The notes below the pieces were generated by a model, which saw only the letters and a list, made by a program, of their open reading frames with translations, was not told the DNA's origin and did no database searches. The translations under genes and the position numbers were made by a program. Shown piece after piece: positions 14,945-51,524 of a stretch of 64,000 nucleotides of DNA; the first letter of the stretch is position 1, and each line of letters opens with the position of its first letter. Source of the stretch: Antedon mediterranea (taxonomy: Eukaryota; Echinodermata; Crinoidea; Comatulida; Antedonidae); contig NC_092670.1 in NCBI RefSeq assembly GCF_964355755.1, positions 9,361,201 to 9,425,200 of the forward strand, written 5' to 3'.

Positions 14945-16787
14945 ATTTATTTTTTGACATAACTAGTTACTATAGCTCTATAAGATGATAACACAATATT
15001 TGTGCATATATGACAATATTATCGCATAATTATTGAATTTTAAAAAGTGTATATTTTGACCATTTTTCGAAAAAGGCCAAATTTCGACCCTTTAGTTTTT
15101 GACATAACTAGTTACTATAGCTCTATAAGATGATGATAACACAATATATGCGCATATATGGCAATATTATCGCATAATTATTGAATTTTAAAAAGTAGAT
15201 ATCTTGGCCATTTTTCGAAAATATCCCTTATGTACAGGGAAATTTTATAAAAATAGCCAATTTTCGACCATTTTATTTTTTGACATAAATGTTTACTATT
15301 GCATAATAAACATGCGCAGAGTCGAATAATGGGTTCTGCGCATGTTTATTATGCTTTAGTAACCATTCATGTCAAAAAATAAAAGTGTCGAAAATTGGCT
15401 ATTTTTCGAAAATTTCCCTGTAACTATAGGACAGGGATTTTTTCCAAAAATTGCCAACTTTCGCATAATAAACATGCGCAGAGTCGAATAATGGGTTCTG
15501 CGCTTGTCAATTATGCTATACTAACAAGTTATTTGGCGATTTTTTTACAAAATCCCTTTTATTTTTTGACATAAATGGTTACTATAGCATAATAAACATG
15601 CGCAGAGTCCAATAATGGGTTCTGCGCATGTCAATTATGATATAGTAACCAGTTATATCAAAAAATAAAATGGTCGAAATTTGGCCATTTTTGGAAAAAA
15701 TCACTGTACTATATTACAGGGAAATTTTCGATAAAGAGCCAATTTTCGACCCTTTTATTTTTGACATAAATGATTACTATAGCATAATAAACATGCGCAG
15801 AGTCGAATGATGGGTTCTGCGCATGTCAATTATGCTATAGTAACCTGTTATGTCAGATAATAAAATGTTCGAAAATTATTTTTAGACATAAATGCTTACT
15901 ATCACATAATAAACATGCGCAGAGTCGAATAATGGGTTCTGCGCATGTCAATTATGCTATAGTAACCAGTTATGTCAGATAATATATGCGCAGAGTCGAA
16001 TAATGGGTTCTGCAGATGTCAATTATGCTATAGTAACCAGTTATGTCAAAAAATAAAATTGTCGAAAATTATTTTTAAACATAAATGTTTACTATTGCAT
16101 AATAAACATGCGCAGAGTCCAATAATGGGTTCTGCGCATGTCAATTATGATATAGTAACCAGTTATATCAAAAAATAAAATGGTCGAAATTTGGCCATTT
16201 TTGGAAAAAATCACTGTACTATATTACAGGGAAATTTTCGAAAAAGAGCCAATTTTCGACCCTTTTATTTTTGACATAAATGATTACTATAGCATAATAA
16301 ACATGCGCAGAGTCGAATGATGGGTTCTGTGCATGTCAATTATGCTATAGTAACCAGTTATGTCAGAAAATAAAATAGTCGAAAATTATTTTTAGACATA
16401 AATGTTTACTATCGCATAATAAACATGCGCAGAGTCGAATAATGGGTTCTGCGCATGTCAATTATGATATAGTAACCAGTTATATCAAAAAATAAAATGG
16501 TCGAAATGTGGCCATTTTTGGAAAAAAATCCCTGTACTGTAGTACAGGGAAATTTTCGAAAAAGAGCCAATTTTCGACCCTTTTATTTGTTGACATAAAT
16601 GATTACTATAGCATAATAAACATGCGCAGAGTCGAATGATGGGTTCTGCGCATGTCAATTATGCTATAGTAACCAGTTATGTCAGAAAATAAAATAGTCG
16701 AAAATTATTTTTAGACATAAATGTTTACTATCGCATAATAAACATGCGCAGAGTCGAATAATGGGTTCTGTGCATGTAGGGTACAAC
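14945..16787. repeat. palindromic satellite, array 1 (about 11 hairpin units)
   Basis: Each unit carries two arms that are inverted copies, ACATAAATGGTTACTATAGC ... ACATGCGCAGA and TCTGCGCATGT ... GCTATAGTAACCAGTTATGT, around a short centre (GTCGAATAATGGG). Some units are joined by a second palindrome, with TGGTCGAAATTTGGCC, AATCCCTGTAC and GTACAGGGAAATTTTCGA. The first part (14945-15240) is a more diverged version with CTCTATAAGATGATAAC. The array ends abruptly where the duplicated gene segment begins. Confidence 0.9.
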
Positions 16788-18011
16788 TCAATCTTCTCAC
16801 TCGAAACGGTAAAGAACGCAAAAATAAATGGACAAGAAATGGACAGAGCCATGTGGGGTCATTAAAACTGAATTGGACTGGGTCATTAGATAATGAGGAA
16901 ACTAGACAATTGGCCAATGGGACCCAAGAATCTAGGAGGTTGTTTTGAATACCGGCATACTAAAAACTGTCAATTTTAGGGGTTTATCACATGATCGATG
17001 TATTAAATGAATAAAAATATTAAATAATAGAATAATAAGACTTAAATTTTTTGTTAAAAGTTGAGAAAGTCGACATTTTTTTCATCCAATTTTCGAAAAA
17101 TCCTTGTACTACAGTACATGAATTTTGTTTTTTAAAACACGGTAAATTCGACTACAATATGTATGTTGTATTAATCGTTAGTTCTTTTAATATGACGAGA
17201 CGTTTTTTGTTGTGTTTTTAGGGTGTGAACAATTGTCAATCAAAATTGTATATATATGTTAAATACTATGTAACTATTTAAAAAACCCACCCTGACTTCT
17301 GATTGGCCAACCATATTCCAAGTAGTTTGTCAGTCAGCCTTTTTCAAAAATGTAGACAAAATTACCGTTAGCTTTGTCTGGGGCTTTTTTTCTAGGCCAC
17401 ATGGTATCATAGGATATGTGTAACTGTAAGAGGAGTAACTGAAGGTTACTGGATAATAACCTCTATAGTATGAGTTATTATCAAAATATATTATTAGAAT
17501 TGGTGGAATGAATTATTTGATTCACATCAAAATGAATTGTAGTGGAATTGCTCTTGAAATAAATATAAAATAGTTGAGAATTTACACTACTAAGGAAATA
17601 GTCTTGACAAGAATATAGAATTCACCATTTAATGTACACTCAACTGCAAAAGTTTCCCCCTCTGCTTTTTTTGTAAGGGCTTGGGACCTTCAAATACAAA
17701 GTGCAATGAATGATATAATGTAAATTATAATGTAATAATTAAAACTGAATGTAATTTATAAAAATTACAAAATAATTTACAACATTAATCATTGCTCTTT
17801 GGATTTGGCAGCATTAAAAACTTTTTTTTTTTATTATTATTATTAACTTTACTGCACATTCAGAATACCATTAGATATGGTGGCCCAATGGCCAAATTGC
17901 ATAAAATACAAATATTTTGTAAAGAGTGAATATAAAATCACAGAACAAATAAAAATTGAAGATATACGAAACAGTATAAAAACTATCCATGGCTACAACA
18001 ATCATTTGGAA
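16788..18011. other. 3' flank of gene copy A
   Basis: No gene is seen. It contains sequence shared by all three gene copies, such as GTAAGGGCTTGGGACCTTC near 17675 and GGCAGCATTAAAAACTTTT near 17807. The same blocks lie downstream of copies B and C, so they belong to the ancestral gene unit. Confidence 0.6.
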
Positions 18012-21000
18012 TCATTCTTTTTGCTGCTTTTTTTTCCTCTCTTGACGAAGGCGACGGATGGCAACCATAGCCGATTTCCATTCTTTAAAAGTCACATCAG
18101 ATGTTGCAGCACAATACCAATTTCCATAGTACTGAGTGTGGTTCTTATTTAATCTTGGTTGCTTACACTTTGAGCACACAATCGCAGACGTTCTTGGTTT
18201 GTATATTTTGATCGGTTTCCCTTCCGATATGTCTTTAGCCACTCGTTTTCTGTACAAGAGGGTAGTTCTAGGAATACGAGTACTGCTAGCCTCAGGGACT
18301 GATGGTGGTGGTCTGTTTCTTAGAGTCGCTAGGCCGGAAGTGTTTTTCGGTAGGACAAATGTGAAAGATGGAGCGCTTGTATGAACGTTTAGCACCGCTG
18401 GCTTGGTTAAAGGTTCAAGTAGGGTTTTATCAGAGACAAGTTTGGGTATTGTTGCCGAGATGCCAGATTCCAACACTTGCCGCTCTTGCTTCTTTGACGT
18501 TCTGTTGTACCTGTTGAAAATAAATCAAACACAGTATTTAAAAACTTTAATGTATTTACTGTAGCGTAAAATAACAATCAATAACAAGTAAAAACTCACC
18601 ACTGGATGAGTGTCGTACGATTTATCTCCATCAACTGAAGCTTAGCAAACAACATCAGGTGTCCATTCGATAGCACTTTCCGACGAATGTTCTTGTAGCC
18701 TTTGGTAATGAGCGGCCAGCGCTGGAAACGTTTACCTTCGATAGATACGGTAGATGGATACGCTTCACATAGTTTTGTAATAATGCACTCCATATATCGA
18801 TTGCAGTCCGGCCACTGAGCTGGCCCGGTGTTCTGACCTAAGAAGCATCTTTTAAAAAAAAAACCAAAGAAACAAGTTAGATTTAAGACACATAATGCAA
18901 CAAAGTAAAAAAACGCTGGAAACTGCCTTACCGTCGAGTGCTTTCGACACCAGGTATTACGGAAGTAGTTTTACTTTTCTTGAACCTGCCTTTCGTCAGG
19001 TAATCTTGATGCCGTGCTTTGCGCTTAATGGTTTTGTCATAAGCATCCAGGTTGTTCCACAACTTTGCGACATGTTCAGCATGACTTTGACTTATCACTC
19101 CACTGTCTTCCTTAAACTGCATAAGGTAGTCTGCCAGGGCTTCAACTTTGGCGTAGCCTGGAATGTTGTCCGGTCCAGTGGAATCCTCAAGTTCCTAAAT
19201 TGTAAAATATGAAAACAAAATATATAATCAGACTCGTGCATTGTATTTCAAAACAGAAACAAAATTTGTGAGGTAGAAGCTAATGATACAAATTTAACTC
19301 ACTGTGTCAAAAAGGGCTGCTTTTCCTTCACCATCATCATCATTATCGTCACATGAAGGCAAGGGCTCCAGCTGGGGTGGTGAGGGTTCTTTAGCATTTC
19401 GAGGTTTAAAACAACGCTTAGGTGGTTTGTAGTCTGGTTGAGTCTTGTCATCATACCCTTCATCAACATCAAAAGTGTAAATTTCTTCATCAAAGTCTTC
19501 ATCATAAATGGTATCTGTTTTGACAGGAAATTGAGTTTCGAGCACTTTGTTCGACTGGTTGTACAGGTACTCCACTCCGATGAGTTCTCCAGTGTACTTG
19601 TTTGGAATGATAAAACTTTTGTACACTTTTTTGCCAATCACTTGCTCTGCCAGTATGTTGAGAGCATGCTGATGCAGTCCACTATATGTACTGGAGATGG
19701 GTCCTCCAGACTGGGTAGCGGCTAGTGCACGGTTTGCATTCCATCGAACAAGTCCATCCATCAGGTAAGCTTGGAAATGTAAGTCGCTAGCACGCTCACC
19801 TGAGAAAAAAATAAAACATCCATAATAATGAAATAATACAAAAATCTGTAGATCGGTTTGAAGATTTGGTAGATACCAAATAAAAAGTAATACTGTACCT
19901 GGAATAAACCTGTTAAGGTGAAGATGAAACGATTCCAAAGAAGTGGAGCCTCTTGCGCAACGATATACTGGCAAGGTAACTCCACCCTTAAGCATCTCAC
20001 TGGTTTTTGTGTAGAGCGGGATGCCTTCTGGATCCTGGATGCAGGCGATGTGTCGCTCTTGTGAGCTCCAGATATCCCAGGTCTGTTCAGAGTCTAAGAG
20101 TGGGACGCCCATTGTGTCACGGCCTTCTTCACCATCGAGGGAAGTCAGCAGCTCTCGGATTAGGTTGGCAGTCTCGCGAGTCCCTCGTGTTGTCCTGCGA
20201 CAATGTAAAGCATACTCCTTCTTGCTGATGTTTTTCAATATGATGTCGTCTGTTGGGTTGGAATGCTTCTTGCTTGCAATGAGCTGTTCACGCTTGGCGA
20301 GCTTCAGACGTTCAACATCGTCAGCGCTCCACTCAAAAATGCAAGCGGAAAGACGTTTGAGAAATATCGGATACAACTGATGTGATTCTGTTGAACAAGC
20401 TGCAGCAATTCTCCTCATGAAGTGCCAGATGTCCAGACGAATTTTCATGTCAGGCCAGGCGCTGAACATCTTCCTTATGCTTGAATGACCGCAGCAGTCA
20501 CGGTCGACGTAGAGAATCTCGGGAGGAGGTACGCCTGCCAAAGCATATCGGTTAATGATGCCGTTTGTCATGTTGTTTAAGCCACATCCTTCTGCAGCAG
20601 TCAGGACTGTAATGAGCACCTGGCCGTACTCATTTCCGACGTTTGTTGCCCACACTCCTGTTCCACATGCACGACCGGCTAGCTTCCTTACAATCTGCAA
20701 AAAAACCCAAACAAATTTATTAGGAAGAAAGCTTCCCCACAATCTGCAAAAAAAAAAAAATTCAAATAATTAAAAGTAAATTGCAGAAATAGTATTGTTT
20801 ATAAATTATTTACCCTTTTGGTCGAGTCAATCTTCAACACTCTTCCGAACGTCGATGTGATAGAAGCCTTGAGTTCGTCGATTCTTCCCATTACTTCGTT
20901 GCAGTAGATGGTAAGGAACCATTGGACAGAGGGAACAGGAATCATTTTAGACACCTCATCAAATTTAGAAGCAGCAATGACATAATCATCACGAGAACCA

Positions 21001-21082
21001 CAGAACTTCTTGCAATTTTCTAAGTAGAGAGCCACTCTCTCATTCCACCGCCTTGTGTGTTGTTCTAAGACTTGTTGGCGAA
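18012..21082 (-). pseudogene. transposase-like gene copy A, 5'-truncated
   Basis: The 3' part of the gene family described at copy C. Exons, 5' to 3' on the minus strand: part of exon 5 (20814-21082), exon 6 (19899-20694), 7 (19303-19799), 8 (18932-19194), 9 (18600-18848), 10 (18012-18510). Phases agree with B and C, and no stop interrupts the remaining exons. The DDE-like core is incomplete only on its 5' side: KIDSTKR, YVDRDCC and TSLESFHLHLNRF are all present, but the N-terminal Cys-rich domain is gone. Relative to B and C it lacks 11 residues in exon 10 (between LRNRP and PPSVP) and one aspartate in exon 7. With no promoter or first exons it is probably not expressed as a full protein. 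Confidence 0.85.
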
Positions 21083-22855: not shown

Positions 22856-23385
22856 CTGGTCACGTTTCTTTTCGCGCATAAATCTCGATCTAGGGTAGAT
22901 GGGTGAATAGGGTGTCTAGGGAAAAAAAAGATGCACCAACCGGATTCGACGCACTTGACTCTTTTAATTAAGAAGAGTAGGCTAGAGCTATAGTTGTGTA
23001 AATAGGCCTACATAGTGAAAGAACTATTTATGAATTCAAGAGTTTAAAAAGAAAACGCAATTTAAAATCTTCGGAAAATACCCACAACTGAGTTATTTTT
23101 AAAACACATGCACTCCCACTACCAGCATCACGTTGTCTTAGCTCGCTCCTCGTGTGAATGCTGACGTCATCACTCTCCAAAAATACACCATTTTCCGCCC
23201 TGGTCCGTGCGCAAAGGGTACAGCTCAATCTTCTCACTCGAAACGGTAAAGAACGCAAAAATAAATGGACAAGAAATGGACAGAGCCATGTGGGGTCATT
23301 AAAACTGAATTGGACTGGGTCATTAGATAATGAGGAAACTAGACAATTGGCCAATGGGACCCAAGAATCTAGGAGGTTGTTTTGA

Positions 23386-24447
23386 ATACCGGCATACTAA
23401 AAACTGTCAATTTTAGGGGTTTATCACATGATCGATGTATTAAATGAATAAAAATATTAAATAATAGAATAATAAGACTTACATTTTTTGTTAAAAGTTG
23501 AGAAAGTCGACATTTTTTTTATCCAATTTTCGAAAAATCCTTGTACTACAGTACATGAATTTTGTTTTTTAAAACACGGTAAATTCGACTACAATATGTA
23601 TGTTGTATTAATTGTTAGTTCTTTTAATATGACGAGACGTTTTTTGTTGTGTTTTTAGGGTGTGAATAATTGTCAATCAAAATTGTATATATATGTTAAA
23701 TACTATGTAACTATTTAAAAAACCCACCCTGACTTCTGATTGGCCAACCATATTCCAAGTAGTTTGATAAGTTAGCCTTTTTCAAAAATTTAGACAAAAT
23801 TACCGTTAACTTTGTCTGGGGCTTTTTTTCTAGGCCACATGGTATCAAAGATTTGTGTAACTGTAAGAGGAGTAACTGAAGGTTACTGGATAATAACCTC
23901 TATAGTATGAGCTATTATCAAAATATATTATTAGAATTGGTGGAATGAATTATTTGATTCACATCAAAATGAATTGTAGTGGAATTGCTCTTGAAATAAA
24001 TATAAAATAGTTGAGAATTTACACTACTAAGGAAATAGTCTTGACAAGAATATAGAATTCACCATTTAATGTACACTCAACTGCAAAAGTTTCCCCTCTG
24101 CTTTTTTTGTAAGGGCTTGGGACCTTCAAATACAAAGTGCAATGAATGATATAATGTAAATTATAATGTAATAATTAAAACTGAATGTAATTTATAAAAA
24201 TTACAAAATAATTTACAACATTAATCATTGCTCTTTGGATTTGGCAGCATTAAAAACTTTTTTTTTTTATTATTATTATTAACTTTACTGCACATTCAGA
24301 ATACCATTAGATATGGTGGCCCAATGGCCAAATTGCATAAAATACAAATATTTTGTAAAAAGTGAATATAAAATCACAGAACAAATAAAAATTGAAGATA
24401 TACGAAACAGTATAAAAACTATCCATGGCTACAACAATCATTTGGAA
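23386..24447. other. 3' flank of gene copy B
   Basis: No gene seen. Nearly identical to 16960-18011. A long run of T followed by ATTATTATTATTAAC (about 24259) and shared blocks such as GTAAGGGCTTGGGACCTTC are present. Confidence 0.6.
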
Positions 24448-24997
24448 TCATTCTTTTTGCTGCTTTTTTTTCCTCTCTTGACGAAGGCGACGGATGGCAA
24501 CCATAGCCGATTTCCATTCTTTAAAAGTCACATCAGATGTTGCAGCACAATACCAATTTCCATAGTACTGAGTGTGGTTCTTATTTAATCTTGATTGCTT
24601 ACACTTTGAGCACACAATCGCAGACGTTCTTGGTTTGTATATTTTGATCGGTTTCCCTTCCGATATGTCTTTAGCCACTCGTTTTCTGTACAAGAGGGTA
24701 GTTCTAGGAATACGAGTACTGCTAGCCTCAGGGACTGACGGTGGTGGTTTTGCTATCTCGCCAGGAACTGGGATCGACGGTCTGTTTCCTAGAGTCGCTA
24801 GGCCGGAAGTGTTTTTTGGTAGGACAAATGTGAAAGATGGAGCGCTTGTATGAACGTTTAGCACCGCTGGCTTGGTTAAAGGTTCAAGTAGGGTTTTATC
24901 AGAGACAAGTTTGGGTATTGTTGCCGAGATGCCAGATTCCAACACTTGCCGCTCTTGCTTCTTTGACGTTCTGTTGTACCTGTTGAAAATAAATCAA

Positions 24998-26824
24998 CAG
25001 GGCCGTAGCCAGGATCTGTCAAGGGGGGGTTCGCACACTAAGTATTTGGGTCACCCCACCCCCATACCTACCCCCCCCCCCCTCCTGGGGTGGGGCCTGA
25101 GGCGAAGCAAATTTTGTTAAATGACACCCCTAGATGGCCGGAAAAGACACTCTCATGCAGCATGCTACCAATGATGAGCAAAACGATCGTACTTTGACTC
25201 GTGGACTATTTAAACGATAACATTTGTTGCCGTATGTTAGATGCGCGTGCTCTGTGCGGAACCGCCGATTGTTAGATCATTTACTCGATATTTTGTTTTG
25301 CGTTCAAGTTCAATGCGAACGTACGTCTAGGAGAAGCCCCAAAAAAAGCACACTGGGTGAAGGAAAATACAATTCTTATTATAGCTCTATCTATAATATT
25401 TATTTACAGCAATTTGTTGAGGAAATTAAATATGCCAATGTAAATAGGTGATATTGATACATTTGAGTACGTATCGGCGAAGCAAATTTTGTTAAATGAC
25501 ACCCCTAGATGGCCGGAAAAGACACTCTCATGCAGCATGCTACCAATGATGAGCAAAACGATCGTACTTTGACTCGTGGACTATTTAAACGATAACATTT
25601 GTTGCCGTATGTTAGATGCGCGTGCTCTGTGCGGAACCGCCGATTGTTAGATCATTTACTCGATATTTTGTTTTGCGTTCAAGTTCAATGCGAACGTACG
25701 TCTAGGAGAAGCCCCGAAAAAAGCACACTGGGTGAAGGCAAATGCAATTCTTATTATAGCTCTATCTATAATATTTATTTACAGCAATTTGTTGAGGAAA
25801 TTAAATATGCCAATGTAAATAGGTGATATTGATACATTTGAGTACGTATCGGCGAAGCAAATTTTGTTAAATGACACCCCTAGATGGCCGGAAAAGACAC
25901 TCTCATGCAGCATGCTACCAATGATGAGCAAAACGATCGTACTTTGACTCGTGGACTATTTAAACGATAACATTTGTTGCCGTATGTTAGATGCGCGTGC
26001 TCTGTGCGGAACCGCCGATTGTTAGATCATTTTACTCGATATTTTGTTTTGCGTTCAAGTTCAATGCGAACGTACGTCTAGGAGAAACCCCAAAAAAAGC
26101 ACACTGGGTGAAGGAAAATGCAATTCTTATTATAGCTCTATCTATAATATTTATTTACAGCAATTTGTTGAGGAAATTAAATATGCCAATGTAAATAGGT
26201 GATATTGATACATTTGAGTACGTATCGGCTGGTGGTCTAGAAAAAAATAATCGGATGCCATAATGTGAACTACAGTACATGATACCATTATAGTGTAAAA
26301 TATTAATATTCACTATAATCCTCTATGATACATTATACTTCATAGCCACACATAAATACTGATGTATGTCGGAAGGCTATATACTTTATGCATGCTGCCT
26401 GACTGCCAGTGATCTAAACAATTGGTACGCAGTTGTCTGGCGGTGTCCTTTCCTTTGTACGAAACGTTCGTCCCCCAGCTCGCTGTGAGACGCGTCAATA
26501 TCATGTTGAATGCAGGGACCAAACATTTATTTTTCAGGTTAAAATCGGCAATTCATTTGCAACTCTTAGAAATTTACAGACTATATCGCTCGAAGTACGC
26601 TCATACAGGGAAGAAGGTACTGTATGAGTTATTCCGAACGAGTTTACGAATTTTTTAATTTACGAACAACTTTTTGTACTGTGGGGCACGTATTTGGACG
26701 ATTTTCGGAGATGAGGGTGAGGTATTGGGCATGTCGGGGATGGGGGTTCGCAGTCGGTTAAGGGGGGTTCGCTGTAAAGGGGGGTTCGCCCGAACCATAA
26801 ACACCCCCCCTGGCTACGGGCCTG
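24998..26824. mobile_element. 1.8-kb non-autonomous hAT-like element inside gene copy B
   Basis: The ends CAGGGCCGTAGCCAGG and CCTGGCTACGGGCCTG are near-perfect inverted repeats. Copy A supplies the empty site (AATAAATCAAACACAG). In B the flanks read AAATCAA on the left and ATATCAA on the right, a 7-8 bp target duplication with one mismatch, as expected for hAT. No transposase frame is present. The interior holds three 375-bp tandem repeats and ends rich in G or C. It lies in the last intron of gene B, leaving 18 nt of native intron before the final exon. Confidence 0.85.
25101..26226. repeat. three tandem copies of a 375-bp unit
   Basis: Units start at 25101, 25476 and 25851, each with GGCGAAGCAAATTTTG, GATGCGCGTGCTCTGTGCGG and ending near GAGTACGTATC. 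They differ at only a few positions. Each shows the same small open frame of about 75 codons, which has no recognisable family and is best regarded as chance. Confidence 0.93.
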
Positions 26825-29800: not shown

Positions 29801-31014
29801 TTAGTTGAATCCAACTCTGCAGTCCCCTTCTTCGATTTCTTGAATAAGGTTTTTGAAATCCACTGCTGATCGATCTCGGGCAAGTTCTTCTTCCATTTAT
29901 CTGGTATGAGACAATCTGCAAGAAAAACCAAAACAAAATTGTATAATTAATGAAACTACATTATGTAATTTTCATTTTCTAGTTTTAAAAATCAAACAAA
30001 ATAATTAAAATTACACTGAAATAAACTACCTTCACTCTGTTTGATAGTTATTGTAGTGGATGGCATAGTACTAACAGGTTCATAAGATGTATTTGGTTGA
30101 GCTGTAAGACGGAAAATTAAAGAATATTTAGCAGTAAACTACTTTCATTCGCTATCTACAGTATGCTATAAAGCAATGTATTTAAACAACACGATTTTAT
30201 GATTGAGTATAAATGAATGCATAAAAAAAAACGTAAACCCAGCAAGCCTACAACATACACAGGCACTAAAAATGCAAAACCTAAAATTATTAATTTAGAA
30301 AATGCACAAAAAACACAAATATGGAATAAGTCTTACCTGGTGCATATGAGGTTGATGGTTGCAAAGAAGCATCAAAGACATCAGTACCAGAAAGTGTTTC
30401 ATCTGTGACATCCTCAACCTTTTGTAGCTTAATACCAACAGGTATGTACGATGTCTGTCTAGTTGGGCATTTCCTGCGGCGTTTTATTTCTTTCATTGCT
30501 ATGGCTTCTTTGCCTTCTGGGAAAGACTCCAAGTACCTCTTAAAGTTGAATTTGTTAATACTAAGTGAACTTGTACTTGGAATTTCATTAGCCATTTTAA
30601 TAACAAAACATACTGCATATTCCAGTACATTTTCGACCATCCACTTGAATGTTTGTCCACTGTATTTACAATGCTGAAACTTGTAGCAGCCCAACACATC
30701 ACATTCATCTTTGGTGTTTCCACCCAGCCTGCACACCTCCTTCAAGGCATCTTGCCGTACATCAGGAGTTAGACACTTGCCAGTTGGTCGTTTTCTCAAG
30801 CTGTTAAATACTACAGCAGCAGATGTATCTTCAAGAATTAAGGCACCCTCTTCACTGCGCCGAAAAGTTGGTCTGAACATACTGTACTGTCTATTGAACA
30901 CCTGCAAAACTAAAAAACCTGATCAAAGGCAAAAATATATGTAAGTAAAGTATGTGAAAAAAGAAAATTTTACCCGTATAATGCCACTGTGCACCGTGCA
31001 GTTGTAGTAAATGG

Positions 31015-40083: not shown

Positions 40084-40124
<41 letters not shown>

Positions 40125-40363
40125 TCAGTCAGTCAGTCAGTCAGTCAGTCAGTCAGTCAGTCAGTCAGTCAGTCAGTCAGTCAGTCAGTCAGTCAGTCAG
40201 TCAGTCAGTCAGTCAGCCAGTCAGTCAGTCAGTCAGTCAGTCAGTCAGCCAGCAACTGAATTATACACTATTCATACATTAAACTGAATTGTTGGTTTCA
40301 AAATAAACAAAACATAAATAAATAATTACCTTGCCCCTTTGACCAAGAGACTGTCGTAGGCAT
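35925..40363 (-). CDS. transposase-like multi-exon protein, copy C (open frame)
   Basis: Exons: 40330-40363 (from an ATG, MPTTVSWSKGQ), 39202-39998, 38161-38956, 37422-37927, 36928-37187, 36569-36820, 35925-36477; 3198 nt, 1065 residues plus stop, phases consistent and no internal stop. Order of parts: YFGHRLLLWMPRK and a Cys-rich segment (CTRPGC, CPNC); RNase H/DDE-like residues Asp in KIDSTKK (about 273), Asp in YVDRDCC (about 341) followed by DIWHFMRKI, and Glu in TSLESFHLHLNRF (about 531); an acidic linker (SDDESDDADFDEE); a Pro-rich tail; and a C-terminal CSQC...H...YC ribbon with a basic KQQKK end. I associate the N-terminal part with the uncharacterised family DUF6729, from memory only. 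Many introns and an intact frame suggest a host gene of transposon origin, but an intron-bearing transposon is possible. The start is uncertain because the large N-terminal exon of B is reduced here to 40915-40952. Confidence 0.7.
37971..38117 (-). repeat. two degenerate partial copies of exon 7 inside the adjacent intron of gene C
   Basis: The start of exon 7 (37862-37927) is echoed at about 37971-38018 (AAGTCCATCCATCAGCTTGG) and 38059-38117 (CACAAGTCCATAAATCAGG, GCATGCTCACCTGTTAAG). The second copy retains an acceptor-like end. They look like local tandem duplication of exon plus intron that has decayed; neither keeps the full exon. Confidence 0.7.
40078..40252. repeat. (CAGT)n / (CAGC)n microsatellite
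   Basis: A run of CAGC tetramers (about 40086-40117) passes into a long run of CAGT, broken by occasional CAGC. It lies in the intron between exons 4 and 5 of gene copy C. The Ser/Gln-only open frame across it is a repeat artefact. Confidence 0.97.
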
Positions 40364-40914
40364 AGTATTAGCAGGTTCTGTAGATGCACTTGGTTGGGCT
40401 AGGTTAATCAATTTGTCAAAGAAAATTTGTCAAAGAAATGTGTTAACAACATTAATAAATCTACAGAAATACCTGTTCTTTACACAGATAGCAGATAGCA
40501 TTTTTTTATATTAAAACAAAAATACATATAGCAGTATATATAATGCATCAGTAGCCGAATGTTAATAAAGGTGCAGGTAAAGCTTACAGTGAATAATGAA
40601 AAAAAAACAAAACAAAAACATTTTCAGACAAGATGAACACATGACAAAACAAGTATAAATACATAATACATATATGACAAAATAAGTAAACATACATACA
40701 AAACAAAACAAGTATAAATACATGAGAAATGATGTAGTTTTTAATAGGCATAATAGCATGTTGTTTTTAATTTGTTTTTTAATGCAAAAAGTACTTTAAT
40801 GAATAAATCAAAAGAAAATAAAAAACATGGCAAGTAGACAGGGTTTTGTCTAACTACAAGAGATACTGCAAACAAAGCATATTTTCTATTTTGTTTTCTA
40901 CCACATATACTTAC

Positions 40915-40952
40915 CAATGCAAAATGAAAGATTGGTCGCAACATCTCCAAAC
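40915..40952 (-). other. remnant or mini-exon matching the N-terminal exon of gene B
   Basis: After an acceptor (TTTTGCAG) the sequence encodes MLRPIFHFAL and then meets a good donor (GTAAGTA). It aligns with the start of B's large exon (MFRPTFRRS) but the remaining 170 or so codons are absent. Joined directly to the next exon it would be out of frame with the core, so it may act as 5' UTR or be skipped. Confidence 0.55.
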
Positions 40953-41030
40953 CTGCAAAACTTAAAAAAAAAACAGATCACGTGCAAAAATGTATGTGAA
41001 CAAAGTAAGTATAAACAAAAGAAATGTTAC

Positions 41031-41073
41031 CGTAAATATTGATGACTCGGTGAAAAGCCAGTTGAAGTGAATG
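41031..41073 (-). other. probable second 5' UTR exon of gene copy C
   Basis: Bounded by CCACTTAG and GTAACATT on the minus strand. It occupies the same relative place as 30974-31014 in gene B. No ATG in a useful frame. Confidence 0.45.
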
Positions 41074-42687
41074 CTAAGTGGTAAAAAGAGAAAATATAGA
41101 TTACTTTTAGAGCTACCACATAATTTATAGCTCTAGCTTAAATGAAAAATTGTAAGTAATTTAAAAATAAACTACTTTCTTTTGTCATTGTTGGTGCACC
41201 ATGAATTTGGGTGCAATAAACTCTGGTAATAATTATTATATGTGTGACCTTGATATAAAAACACATTGAATATTTATTCAATTATTATTATGTTACTAAT
41301 ACTAATTAAATTATTACATAAAGCTACTTCTATTCTAAAACATATTTATAAAAGGTTAATAATTGTATAAATTGATTCTACCTTACAGTCACTAAATTAG
41401 ATATTAGTAATGTTATATAAACTTTGCAGAAAAAAAATGGTGTTTACAAGACTTATGTGATAGTAATTAGAATTAAATTCTAGGGATTATAACTTGATAC
41501 ATGACAGCTGTCTTTGTTTACATACCTTGCCTAGCCTATGCCCAAAGTTTATGAGGTGTAGGTATATAAGACCTTGATATAAAAACACATTGAATATTCA
41601 TTTAATTGTAAAATGTTAATAATACTAATAAAATCATTACATTAAAAGCTACTTCTATTCTAAAACATAATTCTAAAAGGTTAATTAATTGTAGCCTAAA
41701 ATTGATTGTACTTACAGTCACTAAATTAGATGTTAGTAATGTTATATAAACTTTGCAGAAAAAATGGTGTTTACAAGACTTATGTGATAGTAATTAGAAT
41801 TAAATTCTAGGGATTAAGATAACTTAATACAGGACAGCTGTCTTTGTTTATATTCCCAAAAGTTTATGAGGTGTAGTCATGAGATAAGACCTTGAATATT
41901 TAACTAACTGCATTTACTTAATAAACTACATTCAGATATTCAGATAAGATAATATTTATTTAGACAATAATGAATGAATATATACAAAATAGAAAAAAGA
42001 TATTAAAGTGAACACATAGATAGATAAAGCAGTAATTGATAGTCATTATTATCATGGATCCCTTATAGAAGTTAAAAACTTGTCTCGTAGGGACCCACAA
42101 CAAAACACATTACTATAAAAAAATAAATAAACCTAGAATATATAATTATATAATTTAGGATAAAAAATTACAGTATAATAACATAACTAACATCTTCTTT
42201 ATAAAAATTATTTAAATTATATTTCAATAGTTTCATATAAATGAAATAAATTACATTAAAAACAAATTAATAAACAAAAACTAAATAAACAATAACAGGA
42301 GAAGAACACTTTCAGTCTGTCACATATAGACTAGGCCTAACTTCTATCTATTCTAGCCTAGCTAGGCCTCTTTTCCTCCTAGCAGCTAACTAAGAAAAAC
42401 GGCCTATTTTATCATTTTAATTTAATTGAATTTGTAGGCAAACAAAAATATGACAAAAAATACACTAACAGAAAACAATTAACAGAAAACAACGCCCACA
42501 ATGTATTCATTTTTTTTAAATTAACTAATTAAGGCGACGAACTCGGCCGTACTAGGCCTGGGCGCGGCCGACAGCCAGGCCGCGAACGTGCATCGGGACC
42601 GATAACACGTCTCTCGCGGAGCTGATCATATATTTGGCCATACTTTAAACGCCCGTTTTTTGACTAAAATCAATTTTTTTTTCCTAC
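41074..42687. other. probable first intron of gene copy C
   Basis: AT-rich, no coding exon recognised. It contains a direct duplication of about 290 bp, seen as ACACATTGAATATT, CTACTTCTATTCTAAAACATA and TTTGCAGAAAAAATGGTGTTTAC blocks at about 41255-41570 and again at about 41578-41880. Confidence 0.55.
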
Positions 42688-42835
42688 CTTGAATACAAGC
42701 AAACGGTTGCAGGATACTACAGCTTCTAGATGATGACCTCAAATAGGATTGCGCTTAGAAAAACGATTGAATTTAGAGAGCGTTTAGAACGAGATGTTGT
42801 CACAGATAAATCTGATCAAAATCTCAAAGAAAAAC
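42688..42835 (-). other. probable 5' UTR exon of gene copy C
   Basis: Ends with CTTGTATTCAAG and a GTAGGAAA donor on the minus strand. Similar to the exon ending at 34390 in gene B. The upstream limit is not defined by sequence. Confidence 0.5.
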
Positions 42836-42859
42836 CTCGCGGTCCCCTCAATCTCAACT

Positions 42860-42995
42860 TTCTAGTTGCATTACGTCACTCTTCAGCGCTCCGATAGGTT
42901 AACAATTGAAACACTGACTTTCCATGATCGTGATCTGATTGGTCAATAACCTGTTCAATTTGCCGTGAACGTCTGCGATTGGTTAACAATTGAAA
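42860..42995 (-). promoter_or_regulatory. probable promoter of gene copy C: CRE-like and CCAAT modules
   Basis: TTACGTCACTCTTCAGCGC is followed by a degenerate GATAGGTTAAC and two inverted CCAAT boxes (GATTGG at about 42937-42942 and 42977-42982). The order matches the region upstream of gene B (34559-34693), which supports conservation of a promoter module across copies. Confidence 0.5.
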
Positions 42996-43029
42996 CATGA
43001 ATTGAAACAATAAACCTTGCATAATGGGT

Positions 43030-46000
43030 TAAAGTGAGCGCAATAGTACAGGGAAATTTTCGGAAAAGAGCCAATTTTCGACCCTTTTATTTTTGACATA
43101 AATGATTACTATAGCATAATAAACATGCGCAGAGTCGAATGATGGGTTCTGCGCATGTCAATTATGCTATAGTAACCAGTTATGTCAGAAAATAAAATAG
43201 TCGAAAATTATTTTTAGACATAAATGTTTACTATCGCATAATAAACATGCGCAGAGTCGAATAATGGGTTCTGTGCATGTCAATTATGATTTAGTAACCA
43301 GTTATATCAAAAAATAAAATAGTCGAAAATTATTTTTAGACATAAATGTTTACTATCGCATAATAAAAATGCGCAGAGTCGAATAATGGGTTCTGCGCAT
43401 GTCAATTATGCTATAGTAACCAGTTATGTCAGAAAATAAAATAGTCAAATTATTTTTAGACATAAATGTTTACTATCGCATAATAAACATGCGCAGAGTC
43501 AAATAATGGGTTCTGCGCATGTCAATTATGCTATAGTAACCTGTTATGTCAGATAATAAAATGGTCGAAAATTATTTTTATACATAAATGTTTACTATCG
43601 CATAATAAAGATGCGCAGAGTCGAATAATGGGTTCTGCGCATGTCAATTATGCTATCCAGTTATGTCAGATAATAAAATGGTCAAAAATTATTTTTAGAC
43701 ATAAATGTTTACTATCGCATAATAAACATGCGCAGAGTCGAATAATGGGTTCTGCGCATGTCAATTATGATATAGTAACCAGTTATATCAAAAAATAAAA
43801 TGGTCGAAATTTGGCCATTTTTGGAAAAAATCCCTGTACTATAGTACAGGGAAATTTTCGGAAAAGAGCCAATTTTCGACCCTTTTATTTTTGACATAAA
43901 TGATTACTATAGCATAATAAACATGCGCAGAGTCGAATAATGGGTTCTGCGCATGTCAATTATGCTATAGTAACCAGTTATGTCAGATAATAAAATGGTC
44001 GAAAATTATTTTTAGACATAAATGTTTACTATCGCCTAATAAACATGCGCAGAGTCGAATAATGTGTTCTGCGCATGTCAATTATTCTATAGTAACCAGT
44101 TATGTCATAAAATAAAACTGTCGAAAATTATTTTTAGACCTAAATGTTTACTATTGCATAATAAACATGCGCAGAGTCGAATAATGGACTCTGCGCATGT
44201 CAATTATGATATAGTAACCAGTTATATCAAAAAATGAAATGATCGAAATTTGGCCATTTTTCGAAAAAATCACTGTACTATATTACAGGGAAATTTTCGA
44301 AAAAGAGCCAATTTTCGACCCTTTTATTTTTGACATAAATGATTACTATAGCATAATAAACATGCGCAGAGTCGAATTATGGGTTCTGCGCATGTCAATT
44401 ATGCTATAGTAACCAGTTATGTCAGAAAATAAAATAGTCGAAAATTATTTTTAGACATAAATGTTTACTATCGCATAATAAACATGCGCAGAGTCGAATA
44501 ATGGGTTCTGCGCATGTCAATTGTGATTTAGTAACCAGTTATATCAAAAAATAAAATAGTCGAAAATTATTTTTAGACATAAATCTTTACTATCGCATAA
44601 TCAACATGCGCAGAGTCGAATAATGGGTTCTGCGCATGTCAATTATGCTATAGTAACCAGTTATGTCAGAAAATAAAATAGTCGAAAATTATTTTTAGAC
44701 ATAAATGTTTACTATCGCATAATAAACATGCGCAGAGTCAAATAATGGGTTCTGCGCATGTCAATTATGCTATAGTAAGATAAGATAAGATAATATAAAA
44801 ACAAATATAGCATAAAACCATTCATATAAAAACATCTAAAAAATTACAATATAAAATTATCTTCTTGACTTCCTGTTGTACTGGATGATACCTGTTATGT
44901 CAGATAATAAAATGGTCGAAAATTATTTTTACACATAAATGTTTACTATCGCATAATAAAGATGCGCAGAGTCGAATAATGGGTTCTGCGCATGTCAATT
45001 ATGCTATAGTAACCAGTTATGTCAGATAATAAAATGGTCGAAAAATATTTTTAGACATAAATGTTTACTATCGCATAATAAACATGCGCAGAGTCGAATA
45101 ATGGGTTCTGCGCATGTTAATTATGATATAGTAACCAGTTATATCAAAAAATAAAATGGTCGAAATTTGGCCATTTTTGGAAAAAATCCCTGTACTATAG
45201 TACAGGGAAATTTTCGAAAAAGAGCCAATTTTCGACCTTTTTATTTTTGACATAAATGATTACTATAGCATAATAAACATGCGCAGAGTCGAATGATGGG
45301 TTCTGCGCATGTCAATTATGCTATAGTAATCAGTTATGTCAGATAATAAAATGGTCGAAAATTATTTTAGATATAAATGTTTACTATCGCATAATAAACA
45401 TGCGCAGAGTCAAATAATGGGTTCTGCGCATGTCAATTATGATATAGTAACCAGTTATATCAAAAAATAAAATGGTCGAAATGTGGCCATTTTTGGAAAA
45501 AATCCCTGTACTATAGTACAGGGAAATTTTCGAAAAAGAGCCAATTTTCGACCCTTTTATTTGTTGACATAAATGGTTACCATAGCATAATAAACATGCG
45601 CAGAGTCGAATAATGGGTTCTGCGCATGTCAATTATGCTATAGTAACCAGTTATGTCAGATAATAAAATGGTCGAAAATTATTTTTAGACATAAATGTTT
45701 ACAATCGCATAATAAAGATGCGCAGAGTCGAATAATGGGTTCTGCGCATGTCAATTAAGCTATAGCATACCAGTTATGTCAGATAATAAAATGGTCGAAA
45801 ATTATTTTTAGACATAAATGTTTACTATCGCATAATAAACATGCGCAGAGTCGAATAATGGGTTCTGCGCATGTCAATTATGATATAGTAACCAGTTATA
45901 TCAAAAAATAAAATGGTCGAAATTTGGCCATTTTTGGAAAAAAATCCCTGTACTAAAGTACAGGGAAATTTTCGGAAAAGAACCAATTTTCGACCCTTTT

Positions 46001-48466
46001 ATTTTTTGACATAACTGGTTACTATAGCATGATAAACATGCGCAGAGTCGAATAATGGATTCTGCGCATGTCAATTATGCTATAGTAACCAGTTATGTCA
46101 GGTAATAAAATGTTTACTATTGCATAATAAACATGCGCAGAGTCGAATAATGGGTTCTGCACATGTCAATTATGCTATAGTAACCAGTTATGTCAGATAA
46201 TAAAATTGTCGAAAATTATTTTTAGACAAATGTTTACTATCGCATAATAAACATGCGCAGAATCGAATAATGTGTTCTGCGCATGTCAATTATGCTATAG
46301 TAACCAGTTATGTCAGATAATAAAATGGTCGAAAATTATTTTTAGACATAAATGTTTACTATCGCATAATAAACATGCGCAGAGTCGAATAATTGGTTCT
46401 GCGTATGTCAATTATGATATAGTAACCAGTTATATCAAAAAATAAAATGGTCGAAATTTGGCCATTTTCGGAAAAGAACCAATTTTCGACCCTTTTATTT
46501 TTTGACATAACTGGTTACTATAGCATAATAAACATGCGCAGAGTCGAATAATGGGTTCTGCGCATGTCAATTATGCTATTGTAACCAGTTATGTCAGATA
46601 ATAAAATGTTTACTATTGCATAATAAACATGCGCAGAGTCGAATAATGGGTTCTGCGCATGTCAATTATGCTATAGTAACCAGTTATGTCAGATAATAAA
46701 ATTGTCGAAAATTATTTTTAGACAAATGTTTACTATCGCATAATAAACATGCGCAGAATCGAATAATGTGTTCTGCGCATGTCAATTATGCTATAGTAAC
46801 CAGTTATGTCAGATAATAAAATGGTCGAAAATTGGCCATTTTCGGAAAAGAACCAATTTTCGACCCTTTTATTTTTTGACATAACTGGTTACTATAGCAT
46901 AATAAACATGCGCAGAGTCGAATAATGGGTTCTGCGCATGTCAATTATGCTATTGTAACCAGTTATGTCAGATAATAAAATGTTTACTATTGCATAATAA
47001 ACATGCACAGAGTCGAATAATGGGTTCTGTGCATGTCACTTATGCTATAGTAACCAGTTATGTCAGATAATAAAATGGTCGAAAATTATTTTTAGACATA
47101 AATGTTTACTATCGCCTAATAAACATGCGCAGAGTCGAATAATGTGTTCTGCGCATGTCAATTATTCTATAGTAACCAGTTATGTCATAAAATAAAATTG
47201 TCGAAAATTATTTTTAGACCTAAATGTTTACTATTGCATAATAAACATGCGCAGAGTCGAATAATGGACTCTGCGCATGTCAATTATGATATAGTAACCA
47301 GTTATATCAAAAAATGAAATGGTCGAAATTTGGCCATTTTTCGAAAAAATCACTTTACTATATTACAGGGAAATTTTCGAAAAAGAGCCAATTTTCGACC
47401 CTTTTATTTTTTGACATAAATGGTTACTATAGCATAATAAACATGCGCAGAGTCAAATAATGGGTTCTGCGCATGTCAATTATGCTATAGTAACCAGTTA
47501 TGTCAGATAATAAAATGTTTACTATTGCATAATAAACATGTGCAGAGTCGAATAATGGGTTCTGCACATGTCAATTATGCTATAGTAACCAGTTATGTCA
47601 TAAAATAAAATTGTCGAAAATTATTTTTAGACATAAATGTTTACAATCGCATAATAAACATGCGCAGAGTCGAATAATGGGTTCTGCACATGTCAATTAA
47701 GCTATAGCATACCAGAATATGTCAGATAATAAAATGGTCGAAAATTATTTTTAGACATAAATGTTTACTATCGCATAATAAACATGCGCAGAGTCGAATA
47801 ATGGGTTCTGCGCATGTCAATTATGCTATAGTAACCAGTCATGTCAGATAATAAAATTGTCGAAAATTATTTTTAGACAAATGTTTACTATCGCATAATA
47901 AACATGCGCAGAATCGAATAATGTGGTCTGCGCATGTCAATTATGCTATAGTAACCAGTTATGTCAGATAATAAAATGGTCGAAAATTATTTTTAGACAT
48001 AAATGTTTACTATCGCATAATAAACATGCGCAGAGTCGAATAATTGGTTCTGCGCATGTCAATTATGATATAGTAACCAGTTATATCAAAAAATAAAATG
48101 GTCGAAATGTGGTCATTTTTGGAAAAAATCCCTGTACTATATAGTACAGGGAAATTTTCGAAAAAGAGCCAATTTTCGACCCTTTTATTTGTTGACATAA
48201 ATGGTTACTATAGCATAATAAACATGCGCAGAGTCGAATAATGGGTTCTGCGCATGTCAATTATGCTATAGTAACCAGTTATGTCAGATAATAAAATGGT
48301 CGAAAATTATTTTTAGACATAAATGTTTACAATCGCATAATAAACATTCGCAGAGTCGAATAATGGGTTCTGCGCATGTCAATTAAGCTATAGCATACCA
48401 GTTATGTCAGATAATAAAATGGTCGAAAATTATTTTTAGACATAAATGTTTACTATCGCATAATAA
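43030..48466. repeat. palindromic satellite, array 2 (about 39 hairpin units)
   Basis: Same unit as array 1. Short units recur about every 120 bp: a hairpin with ACATGCGCAGAGTCGAATAA and GGTTCTGCGCATGTCAATTA arms, plus linker TAAAATGGTCGAAAATTATT. Every few units a long form of about 196 bp adds a second palindrome (GGTCGAAATTTGGCC, CCCTGTAC/GTACAGGG, TTCGACCCTTTTATT). A 115-bp foreign stretch interrupts it near 44777-44890 (AAGATAAGATAAGATAATAT). Small frames reading through it are artefacts. The array abuts the upstream region of gene C. Confidence 0.93.
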
Positions 48467-51014
48467 ATTTTATTTTATTTTTTTATTTTATTCAATCAAA
48501 ACCAACAGCGATAAATACCGCCACTAACAGGTTTGAAACATAAAACAATACAACATCAAAAACGGTTAACAATAAAATACAGATAAAATATATATATATA
48601 TATATATAAAACATAGATTGGCATGCCATAAACAATTTCAATTAAACAGGTTATGCAGGCTGTTCAAGAAGTGAACACATCATCGTCCTCTTAAAATAAC
48701 CAAGTCTATCATTAAAAATATCGATATGATTGCTATTTAGATTATTAAATGTATAAGGTAGTCTATGAAAAAGTCCCCTCTTAGTACAGTCGACACGGCT
48801 AAAAGGAATATGCAATAAATGTCTATTTCGTGTACGACCAGGAACATTTAAACTAAATAGTGAAATTAATGAACAGTCATATTTAGAATTTAAAATATTA
48901 TATAAAAAAACCATATCAGATATCGTTCGACGATTGCTGACAGAATCAATGGAAAAGGCAAAATTAACACAGTTATAAGACAGGAATCGAACAAACTTCC
49001 GTTGAACAGTGTCGATTCGACGGGCCTGACATGGAGAAATTGAATTGAAAATTGCGGAACAATATTCAAGGTGAGGACGTATAATAGATTTGTATAAAGA
49101 TAAAAGTGCCCTGCCGTCGTTCATAAACCTACAATTTCTCCATATTAAGCCCATCATTCTATTAGCTTTTGACAACACATGATTAATATGTGAACAAAAA
49201 TTTAATTTACTATCAATAAAAATACCTAAATCTTTCCATACATAAACCATCTCAAGATCATGTCCACTCAGATTATAATTGAAGAGCACAGGCCTTTTTT
49301 TAAGTGTTATAGATAAATATTTGCATTTATTAGCATTAAGTTTTATCCCCCACTTCTCCGTCCATTCCACGAGACCATCCAGATCCTCCTGCAGTGAAAA
49401 AGCATCCTGTGGAGTGGTAATCACTTTAAACAATTTCAGATCGTCAGCAAATAAAAGAGACTCGGAATGATTAAATTTTAAAGGAAGATCGTTGATAAAT
49501 AAATTAAACAAAAGCGGGCCCAGGATCGAGCCCTGCGGAACGCCCGATAACACAGGGAGCCAATCAGATGTCTCTCCCCCAATGACAACACGCTGTTGTC
49601 TATTAGTTAAATAGCTTTTAAACCAACTTAACAGTGAACCGGATAAACCAAATTTTGAAAGTTTAAAAATAAGCAAATCATGGGAAACGGAATCAAAAGC
49701 CTTAGAGAAATCAGTGTAAATCACATCGCACTGCTTCTTGCTGTTAATTGCATCGTATGATGTAGCAAGAAGCAGTGCGAGGTTGGTTTGACATGATCTC
49801 CCAGAGACAAAACCATGCTGCCTAGGACTTAAAGCATTAGCAACATGTGATGACAAACCATCATGCACAATGCGCTCAAAAATCTTAGACATAGTAGGCA
49901 ATAACGAAATAGGACGATAGTTACAGATTAGTTTTTTGGGACCACTCTTGTGAATTTGGACAATATTAGCGTGTTTCCAAGATGAAGGAAAAACCCCAGA
50001 ATTAATAGATAGCTGAAACAATTTGCAAAGCGGATAAGAGAGTGAGGAGGAGGCACCCTTTAAGACAACGTTACTAATCTGATCAATGCCAGTAGCTTTA
50101 TTGATATCAATGTTACTAAGTGCCTTTTCCACAGAATGCTGATTCACAGACAGAGAACTTAAGTTATCCACCGCATAGTCAGGAAGACCTGGATAGTCCC
50201 GGGGAACGTCCGGAGAAGGCTCACTGAAAAAAGAATGAAAATAAGAATTAAATGTGGTAGCTTTATCATAATTAGACTGGAATGAAATGTTATCGTGACT
50301 CATGACAGAAGGAAGATTATTTGACTTGTATTTAGTTTTCATCCAGCTCCAGAATCTTTTACTGTTAGTGACAATTTGCTTAGCCAAAGAGTCCAAGTAA
50401 TCTTTGTACTTTTTATTGCACATTTTTTTTAAAGACGCGCGAGCAAATTTGAAATTACTTTGGGCTAACCGATTATTATTTTTTTTCAGATATCTATAAT
50501 ACTTTTCTTTGAGTTGAAGCGCACTTCTCAACTCATTGTCAAACCACGGAGGAAGCTTTCTGCGCTTTCTAATTTTAGGCACTGTGTCATTGACGGCAGC
50601 ATTTAACAAATTATAAAACATATCCAAAGCTTCATTTAAATCACCTTCAAAATCAATTAAGACACTCCATGGAACACAGTTAAGAGTATTACATAGATTA
50701 TTGACATCAAGTGCTTTAAAATTGTAAATTATACTTTTACGATTCAAATTATCATTACTACAATTAACATCAAAATTTAAACGGAAATCAATTCTCAAAG
50801 ATGAGTGGTCAGATAAAAAAATATCGTTAGCAGTATAGACTTTGTCGGAAATGTTTTTACTACAAATAACAAGATCAAGCATTTTATCCATTCTTGTACA
50901 GTACGTATTGCATTGAAATAGGCCACAGCTAGAAAGCAATACATCAAGTAAGTGTTCTGCCATGGACTGAGCTGGAGCAGAATAAGGGTTGCTACTCCAA
51001 TTAATTTCGGGCAT
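48467..51014 (-). mobile_element. 5'-truncated CR1/Jockey-type non-LTR retrotransposon
   Basis: A LINE inserted within a unit of the palindromic satellite: the unit stops at GCATAATAAA (48466) and resumes with CGCAGAGTCGAATAATGG at 51015. The 3' end (left side) is an A-rich tail, AATAAAATAAAAAAATAAAA on the minus strand. The 5' end is cut within the endonuclease domain. A poly-AT microsatellite (about 48589-48606) lies in the 3' UTR. Confidence 0.92.
48651..51014 (-). CDS. endonuclease (partial) / reverse transcriptase of the LINE
   Basis: About 787 codons without a stop. It starts within the AP-endonuclease domain at MPEINW, which normally follows a GDFN motif that is missing here. The endonuclease ends with the conserved LSDHSSL. 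A reverse transcriptase follows: NYRPISLLPTMSKIFERI, DFSKAFDSVSHDLL, SGVPQGSILGPLLFNLFIND and catalytic FADDLKLF, then a thumb/C-terminal part (LGIFIDSKLNF, RPHLEYCSAIF, RTRNRHLLHIP). The open frame suggests a young copy. The frame continues upstream into satellite sequence, which is not part of the protein. The clade (CR1/Crack/Jockey side) is my best judgement; it cannot retrotranspose alone because the 5' part is lost. Confidence 0.9.
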   Translation of the reverse strand: MPEINWSSNPYSAPAQSMAEHLLDVLLSSCGLFQCNTYCTRMDKMLDLVICSKNISDKVYTANDIFLSDHSSLRIDFRLNFDVNCSNDNLNRKSIIYNFKALDVNNLCNTLNCVPWSVLIDFEGDLNEALDMFYNLLNAAVNDTVPKIRKRRKLPPWFDNELRSALQLKEKYYRYLKKNNNRLAQSNFKFARASLKKMCNKKYKDYLDSLAKQIVTNSKRFWSWMKTKYKSNNLPSVMSHDNISFQSNYDKATTFNSYFHSFFSEPSPDVPRDYPGLPDYAVDNLSSLSVNQHSVEKALSNIDINKATGIDQISNVVLKGASSSLSYPLCKLFQLSINSGVFPSSWKHANIVQIHKSGPKKLICNYRPISLLPTMSKIFERIVHDGLSSHVANALSPRQHGFVSGRSCQTNLALLLATSYDAINSKKQCDVIYTDFSKAFDSVSHDLLIFKLSKFGLSGSLLSWFKSYLTNRQQRVVIGGETSDWLPVLSGVPQGSILGPLLFNLFINDLPLKFNHSESLLFADDLKLFKVITTPQDAFSLQEDLDGLVEWTEKWGIKLNANKCKYLSITLKKRPVLFNYNLSGHDLEMVYVWKDLGIFIDSKLNFCSHINHVLSKANRMMGLIWRNCRFMNDGRALLSLYKSIIRPHLEYCSAIFNSISPCQARRIDTVQRKFVRFLSYNCVNFAFSIDSVSNRRTISDMVFLYNILNSKYDCSLISLFSLNVPGRTRNRHLLHIPFSRVDCTKRGLFHRLPYTFNNLNSNHIDIFNDRLGYFKRTMMCSLLEQPA

Positions 51015-51524
51015 ACGCAGAGTCGAATAATGGGTTCTGCGCATGTCAATTATGATATAGTAACCAGTTATATCAAAAAATAAAATGGTCGAAATTTGGC
51101 CATTTTCGGAAAAGAACCAATTTTCGACCCTTTTATTTTTTGACATAATTGGTTACTATAGCATATTAAACATGCTCAGAGTCGAATAATGGGTTCTGCG
51201 CATGTCAATTATGATATAGTAACCAGTTATATCAAAAAATAAAATGGTCAAAATTTATTTTTAGACATAAATGTTTACTATCATGCGCAGAGTCGAATAA
51301 TGAGTTCTGCGCATGTCAATTATGCTATAGTAACCAGTTATATCGAAAAATAAAAAGGTCGAAAGTTGGCCATTTTTGGAAAAAATCCCTGTACTATTAT
51401 AGTACAGGGACATTTACGAAAAATGGGAAAATTTCTACCCTTTTAGTTTTTGACATAACTAGTTACTATAGCTCTATAACATGATGATAACACAATATAT
51501 GGCAATATTAATATAGCTCTATAA
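51015..51524. repeat. palindromic satellite, continuation beyond the LINE
   Basis: Three more hairpin units, one with the second palindrome (CCCTGTACTATTATAGTACAGGG at about 51386). It ends with the diverged CTCTATAACATGATGATAAC type also seen at the start of array 1. Confidence 0.9.

Follow-up and report, generated by a model that had tools for sequence, protein, structure and literature searches.

Transposons of the Dada superfamily are the closest described systems, and, as far as the available text of two papers on them goes, their targets are snRNA, tRNA and 5S rRNA genes, with single copies elsewhere mentioned and changes of target inferred by comparing families (PMC3706591, PMC8869645). 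The available part of a further paper names a Dada family in a table row without target information (PMC6027319). The elements described here resemble published Dada-U6 (Kojima and Jurka 2013, PMC3706591, available text) in their 6-bp GCGCAA flanks, the lack of terminal inverted repeats, the presence of introns, the sequence CAGAGAAGA near the 3' end (exact in our element C), the zinc and DDE+DxxH spacing, and the U6 target, which is occupied by one copy of C. Unlike Dada-U6, our elements A and B and their dispersed copies insert in a palindromic satellite and carry the 3'-end motif GTGAGAAGATT. Tandem copies split by a 6-mer have been reported for Dada-U1 (PMC3706591, available text). Dada-tA shares with our elements the replacement of the target 6-mer by TTGCGC, but its target, in the text available, is tRNA-Ala, whereas here it is a non-genic satellite (PMC3706591, PMC8869645). 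Outside the superfamily, the foldback transposon Tetris and the satellite TIR-220 of Drosophila likewise associate a transposon with kilobase arrays; there, however, the available account has the satellite arising from the repeats of the transposon, while here the satellite is the insertion target (PMC4079207). Repeat-targeted non-LTR retrotransposons, and CryptonV elements in microsatellites, also use a fixed kind of repetitive site (PMC8869645, available text), but with other enzymes than the DDE-type DNA transposon considered here. We did not find satellite targeting by Dada in the open-licence literature, and the term 'satellite DNA' is absent from the available text of the two Dada papers (PMC3706591, PMC8869645). 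The superfamily is a known one, and its kind of target here is apparently new.

We propose, with a probability of roughly 0.88, that the cluster consists of three Dada copies that entered a single satellite array in head-to-tail orientation, and that A, B and the dispersed copies form a Dada family which targets this satellite, in most cases at the centre of the dyad in palindrome P2 (CCCTGTACTA^TAGTACAGGG), instead of a small-RNA gene. The original prediction described genes A, B and C as lying head to tail, with an array of the same palindromic satellite immediately at each outer border. This arrangement (genes at 16778-43037) is confirmed in the window, that is, in the whole 64,000-nucleotide stretch of Antedon mediterranea DNA analysed (Table 1).

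Table 1. Coordinates of satellite arrays, element copies and border words in the window; copies are named by their assignment to the Dada superfamily.
Feature	Position	Strand	Remark
Satellite array 1	14946-16777	+	11 P1 palindrome monomers, mostly 122- and 195-bp steps
Dada copy A	16778-21082	-	5'-truncated; 3' end CCCT abuts P1 monomer
Copy A exons	20694-19899, 19799-19303, 19194-18932, 18848-18600, 18510-18013	-	
GCGCAA flank, 3' end of B	23209-23214		
Dada copy B, satellite-targeting family	23215-34746	-	one in-frame stop
B exon with DUF6729 and first presumed catalytic D	29119-29915	-	DUF6729 E 6.5e-81
GCGCAA 6-mer between B and C	34747-34752		sole sequence between the two elements
Dada copy C, Dada-U6 type	34753-43037	-	six exons, open over 1053 codons
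Copy C exons	39998-39202, 38956-38161, 37927-37422, 37187-36928, 36820-36569, 36477-35925	-	
P2-like palindrome TGTACTACAGTACA, 3' subterminal	A 17105-17118; B 23542-23555; C 35060-35073, 35287-35300		
GCGCAA 6-mer, 5' end of C	43038-43043		
Satellite array 2	43044-48467	+	begins exactly at dyad centre of palindrome P2 (TAGTACAGGG)
Array 2 continuation past retrotransposon	51012-51524	+	outer edge again 148-bp variant

The satellite is composed of palindrome P1, with palindrome P2 (core CCCTGTACTATAGTACAGGG) added in the longer spacers, and both fold as single strands far better than shuffled sequence (200 shuffles; z -10.6 for P1 and -6.7 for P2). Counted by their core at up to four substitutions, the P1 monomers number 53, 11 in array 1 and 42 in array 2/3. 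Both arrays have the same orientation; array 1 terminates within a P1 monomer at copy A, and its outer edge is a diverged 148-bp variant. The two monomers adjoining the cluster (16539-16777 and 43047-43280) are 99.1% alike, a value marginal against that of other monomers, and have in common a variant pair that occurs nowhere else in the window. Within a monomer of array 2 lies a non-LTR retrotransposon (48468-51011) that is truncated at its 5' end and has a long open frame for reverse transcriptase, and a second reverse-transcriptase remnant (51530-53500, plus strand) starts approximately where the 148-bp variant breaks off. Diverged satellite appears again at about 56885-57083, and the window also holds two minisatellites, at 1540-1742 (20 bp, 96% between copies) and 14116-14421 (42 bp, 93%).

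The genes are present as originally described, but had to be corrected to spliced genes of six exons; B has the same exons as C with one stop, and we infer at least one additional small 5' exon. A and B are 97-99.5% identical, whereas C matches them at about 70-84% in aligned blocks. Between B and C, dS is about 0.85-0.86 and dN/dS is 0.157, a ratio that points to purifying selection; between A and B, dS is 0.006 and dN/dS 0.68 on 10 changes. Copy B contains two insertions, one in an intron (24998-26826) with inverted ends CAGGGCCGTAGCCAGG and three internal 375-bp tandem repeats, the other in its 5' part (about 32103-34301) with 81-bp inverted ends that are 98.8% alike. The 3' subterminal region of the element holds a 14-bp palindrome core nearly that of the satellite target.

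By motif, spacing, flanks and target, rather than by alignment, A, B and C can be assigned to the DNA transposons of the Dada superfamily. DUF6729 is the only Pfam match of the genes (E 6.5e-81 and 2.2e-82). The N-terminal CCCC zinc motif (C82, C87, C120, C123) has steps of 5/33/3 compared with 5/35/3 in the reference, and the C-terminal CCHC motif (C-x2-C-x8-H-x8-C) steps of 3/9/9 compared with 3/10/9, the reference values being those in the available text of PMC3706591. D261 and D329 are 68 residues apart, exactly as D567 and D635 in zebrafish Dada-U6 (Dada-U6_DR; PMC3706591, available text); DxxH occurs as DIWH at 353, past the second D, and the candidate E519 lies 190 residues from the second D, against 176 in the same reference, all catalytic residues being assigned by motif. 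At the unit borders, three alignments of an end with the reversed other end did not rise above shuffles, so no terminal inverted repeats were found there. Equal 6-mers, corresponding to the 6-7 bp target site duplication of Dada, flank the element at four of the seven loci with both flanks read, and unequal 6-mers have been published, in the text available, for Dada families that replace the target 6-mer (PMC3706591, PMC8869645). As to the fixed small-RNA-gene site typical of Dada, one C-family copy occupies such a site (U6, on C10), and only the B family departs from it: no Rfam family reached the cut-off in the window or in 12 loci around B-type copies. The sub-terminal inverted repeats of Dada-U6 are TCTTCTCTG and CAGAGAAGA, of which CAGAGAAGA stands exactly at the 3' end of C and as GTGAGAAGA in B; the repeat was seen at this one end, and by eye no 5' partner was seen. 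Structure prediction for two exons failed, with pLDDT values of 35 and 37, a PDB sequence search returned no match below E 0.5, and IMG/VR and GTDB contigs yielded no sequence matches, the satellite patterns likewise being absent from IMG/VR.

Relatives of B occur on seven contigs (C1, C3, C4, C5, C8, C10 and C11) of the 354-Mb, 18-contig genome. The compared copies, which make up 15 of the 28 DUF6729 profile matches in the genome, have common ends, 5'-TACAAATAACCC...GTACCCT-3', with C3 and window A having no 5' end. They diverge between loci by 0.15-0.94%, with locus C10b at about 3% (6% against window B, unlike insertions included). Near-identical copies with one pair of ends, dispersed over contigs, argue for mobility and hence for a transposon. 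The other 13 DUF6729 matches (C8:14.998M-15.041M, C3:36.53M, C9:21.75M, C2:14.32M and C10:11.2M), which are absent from the 5'-end search, are perhaps other Dada families or remnants.

The surroundings of these copies identify the satellite as the insertion target. A search for the 5' end returned 21 places; these reduce to 13 loci and a 46-bp fragment on C9, the latter outside the counts. Satellite adjoins the 5' side at nine of the 13 loci (C10b, C11, C1b, C4, C5, C8, C2, C5:17.12M and C5:17.57M; BLAST to the window arrays, E 8e-20 or better), and at two more, window B and C4:31.83M, the 5' side is a U6-type Dada end. C8:26.28M has a 16-bp satellite-like stub as its only likeness, without BLAST support, and the truncated C3 copy has no satellite on either side. 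Six of the nine satellite junctions fall at the left half of P2, at CCCTGTACTA^TAGTACAGGG (C10b, C1b, C4, C5, C8 and C2); C11 meets a piece of P1, and the two remaining C5 loci meet the 148-bp variant. The 3' sides, known from the fetched loci, lie in satellite at seven of the eight loci read outside the window (C10b, C11, C1b, C4, C5, C8 and C5:17.12M), the exception being C3. Within the window, element C, of the U6 type, adjoins the satellite at the dyad centre of P2 (43044), A ends in P1 at its 3' side and B ends in DNA that matches no satellite. As a control, the copy in a U6 gene has no satellite match on either side. With satellite at 9/13 5' sides and 7/8 3' sides, the satellite is best understood as the insertion target. 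We suggest that a DDE transposase would cut the palindrome. In the window, the 3' end of the truncated copy A falls within a P1 palindrome of array 1, and the U6-type C has the satellite on one side and B on the other, each across a GCGCAA.

An association of gene unit and satellite had been predicted from the window, and it is borne out by the 13 B-type loci (nine satellite-flanked on the 5' side, two more Dada-flanked) together with the seven of eight 3' sides. Among the copies examined, which account for 15 of the 28 DUF6729 matches, it is not the case that most lie far from the satellite. The accompanying suggestion that unit and satellite spread together stands in that the two belong together, but it is not quite right, because the satellite is dozens of times commoner than the transposon: at least 779 genomic matches to one satellite query, and 696 + 740 strand matches to the palindrome pattern CCCTGTACTANNNNNCAGGG, which allows any 5-mer, face 28 matches to DUF6729. 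The palindromic site is counted on both strands in these 696 + 740 matches, and the pattern written backwards gave 0 + 3.

The abundance of the satellite also weighs against the idea that gene and satellite form one foldback-like element with the arrays as its long inverted repeats. Palindromic arrays do flank a transposase gene here, and there is a known case of a satellite seeded by a foldback element (PMC4079207, available text); the arrays, however, share one orientation and so are not long inverted terminal repeats, and the element ends are sharp. We regard this explanation as extremely improbable.

A different origin, in which the satellite itself was built from Dada sequence so that the element inserts into a derivative of its own end, seems unlikely, although it has more in its favour. 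The P2 core TGTACTAYRGTACA has 24 strand matches in the window against 0.11 expected in all, and seven of them lie in the 3' subterminal regions of A, B and C; the alignment of the satellite with the 3' subterminal regions exceeded all 100 shuffles in each of six comparisons. On the other hand, similarity outside the core is weak, the internal palindrome copies fold no better than shuffles, and the Dada 5' end matches P1 no better than chance (158 and 455 of 1000 shuffles reach the score). For this last reason we rejected the idea that P1 is derived from the Dada 5' end.

The words at the unit borders stand where the original prediction placed them: GGGTTA(N6)GCGCAA occupies exactly 34735-34752 and 43026-43043, and GCGCAAA is found at 23209 and 34747. 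Neither is rarer than chance: at up to two mismatches the longer pattern has two matches against 3.2 in shuffles, and GCGCAAA occurs seven times in the window against 7.6. It is their position at the unit ends that counts, not rarity, and the GCGCAA border words are the 6-bp flanks of transposon insertions. Read on the other strand, GCGCAA, the Dada-U6 duplication, is TTGCGC, which stands next to most of the satellite insertions. Both flanks could be read at seven loci. They are equal at four, namely C1b, where a perfect duplication TAGTAC/TAGTAC in P2 is the palindrome's own sequence, and C5, C11 and C5:17.12M, which have TTGCGC on both sides; they are unequal at three (C4, TAGTAC and TTGCGC; C8, ATGCGC and TTGCGC; C10b, CTGTAC and TAGCGC). 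The target's own 6-mer is thus found on both sides at C1b only. Among the CCCTGTACTANNNNNCAGGG matches listed, all on C1, the 5-mer is TAGTA or a near variant and in no case TTGCG, and CTGTACTATTGCGCAGGG at up to one mismatch has a single genome match, which is outside the satellite. A possible empty TTGCGC site at C8:3.236M was rejected, as it is not satellite. Since no empty satellite palindrome with TTGCGC was found, the 6-mer seems to travel with the element. The family would accordingly carry the U6-type TTGCGC along, replacing the target's TAGTAC on one or both sides. For Dada-tA, the exchange of the target 6-mer for TTGCGC, at one flank or at both, has likewise been described, and inheritance from an ancestor that targeted U6 has been suggested as its origin (PMC8869645, available text).

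The same 6-mer marks the joints of tandem arrays elsewhere in the genome. C8 carries four tandem units, of which three show no difference over 7525 bp and the fourth shows two; C4 carries two, identical over 7513 bp; and at C5:17.12M three starts lie 5206 bp apart. The unit fetched from C5:17.12M is without the DUF6729 exon and most of the next exon; over its last 3.3 kb it agrees with B-type copies at about 95-96%. One of the three tandem starts, C5:17121801-17127030, is apparently a relative of B that is non-autonomous and 5.2 kb long, shares the ends of B and is flanked by satellite. A search for the right end of the C5:17.57M array at its predicted place did not find it. At every joint read, the units are joined by a 6-mer equal to that at the left end of the array (C8 x4, C4 x2, C5 x3).

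The original prediction saw in the satellite a possible substrate for unequal exchange, and exchange between satellite arrays around a host gene would account for satellite at both outer borders of the cluster and for the 99.1% likeness, with its exclusive variant pair, of the array monomers that face the cluster from either side. That match, however, is only marginally better than those of other monomers and becomes a tie in the reverse direction, and the copies are dispersed at one kind of site. Exchange would moreover leave satellite between the units, and there is none at the B/C joint or at the joints read on C8, C4 (two loci) and C5, which carry the 6-bp word instead. Satellite-mediated exchange is rejected on this ground and we consider it very unlikely. 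The tandems of like units (C8 x4, C4 x2, C5 x3) might instead be local duplications of one insertion, by rolling circle or by exchange at the 6-mer. The identity of three of the four C8 units and of both C4 units, and inner 6-mers equal to the left one, agree with such duplication, and we hold it to be a realistic possibility at somewhat less than even odds. The same 6-mer, however, also joins C and B, which belong to different families (dS 0.86), and the joint of a C-type to a B-type 5' end recurs at C4:31.83M, which fits insertion better. We keep to insertion as the preferred reading, in which a tandem array would grow as a new copy enters the 6-bp flank of one already in place; this explains the joint of unlike C and B both here and at C4:31.83M.

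The sister family provides a link to the presumed ancestral type of target. In the genome, 3' ends of element C occur at three places, namely in the window, at C4:31.83M and at C10:15.95M, and the C-type copy on C10 is 98.7-99.3% identical to window C in the main aligned blocks. It lies between two parts of a U6 snRNA gene, with the direct repeat TCCTTGC on both sides; the 5' part of the gene was identified by Rfam (RF00026, positions 1-71, 64.8 bits) and the 3' part by eye. The B-type 3' end, GAGAAGATT(N8)CCCT, matches the U6 sequence GAGAAGATTAGCATGGCCCCT upstream of the insertion site in motif and spacing. The satellite-targeting family may then descend from a U6-targeting ancestor. We see an even chance that a lineage of DDE transposons exchanged U6 snRNA genes for a palindromic satellite as its dedicated target, taking the ancestral 6-bp flank with it in the manner of a coupling sequence and forming head-to-tail concatemers through insertion at this flank, with a sister family that has a U6 copy in the same genome and both families meeting at this locus.

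DUF6729 was not found named in the open-licence literature, and our data suggest a role for it as the N-terminal zinc region of Dada transposases. The U6 insertion, the satellite insertions of the sister family, the carried-over 6-mer and recent copies are all present within one genome, and transposase recognition and target change thereby become testable. The locus also illustrates how a DNA transposon can take refuge in satellite DNA.
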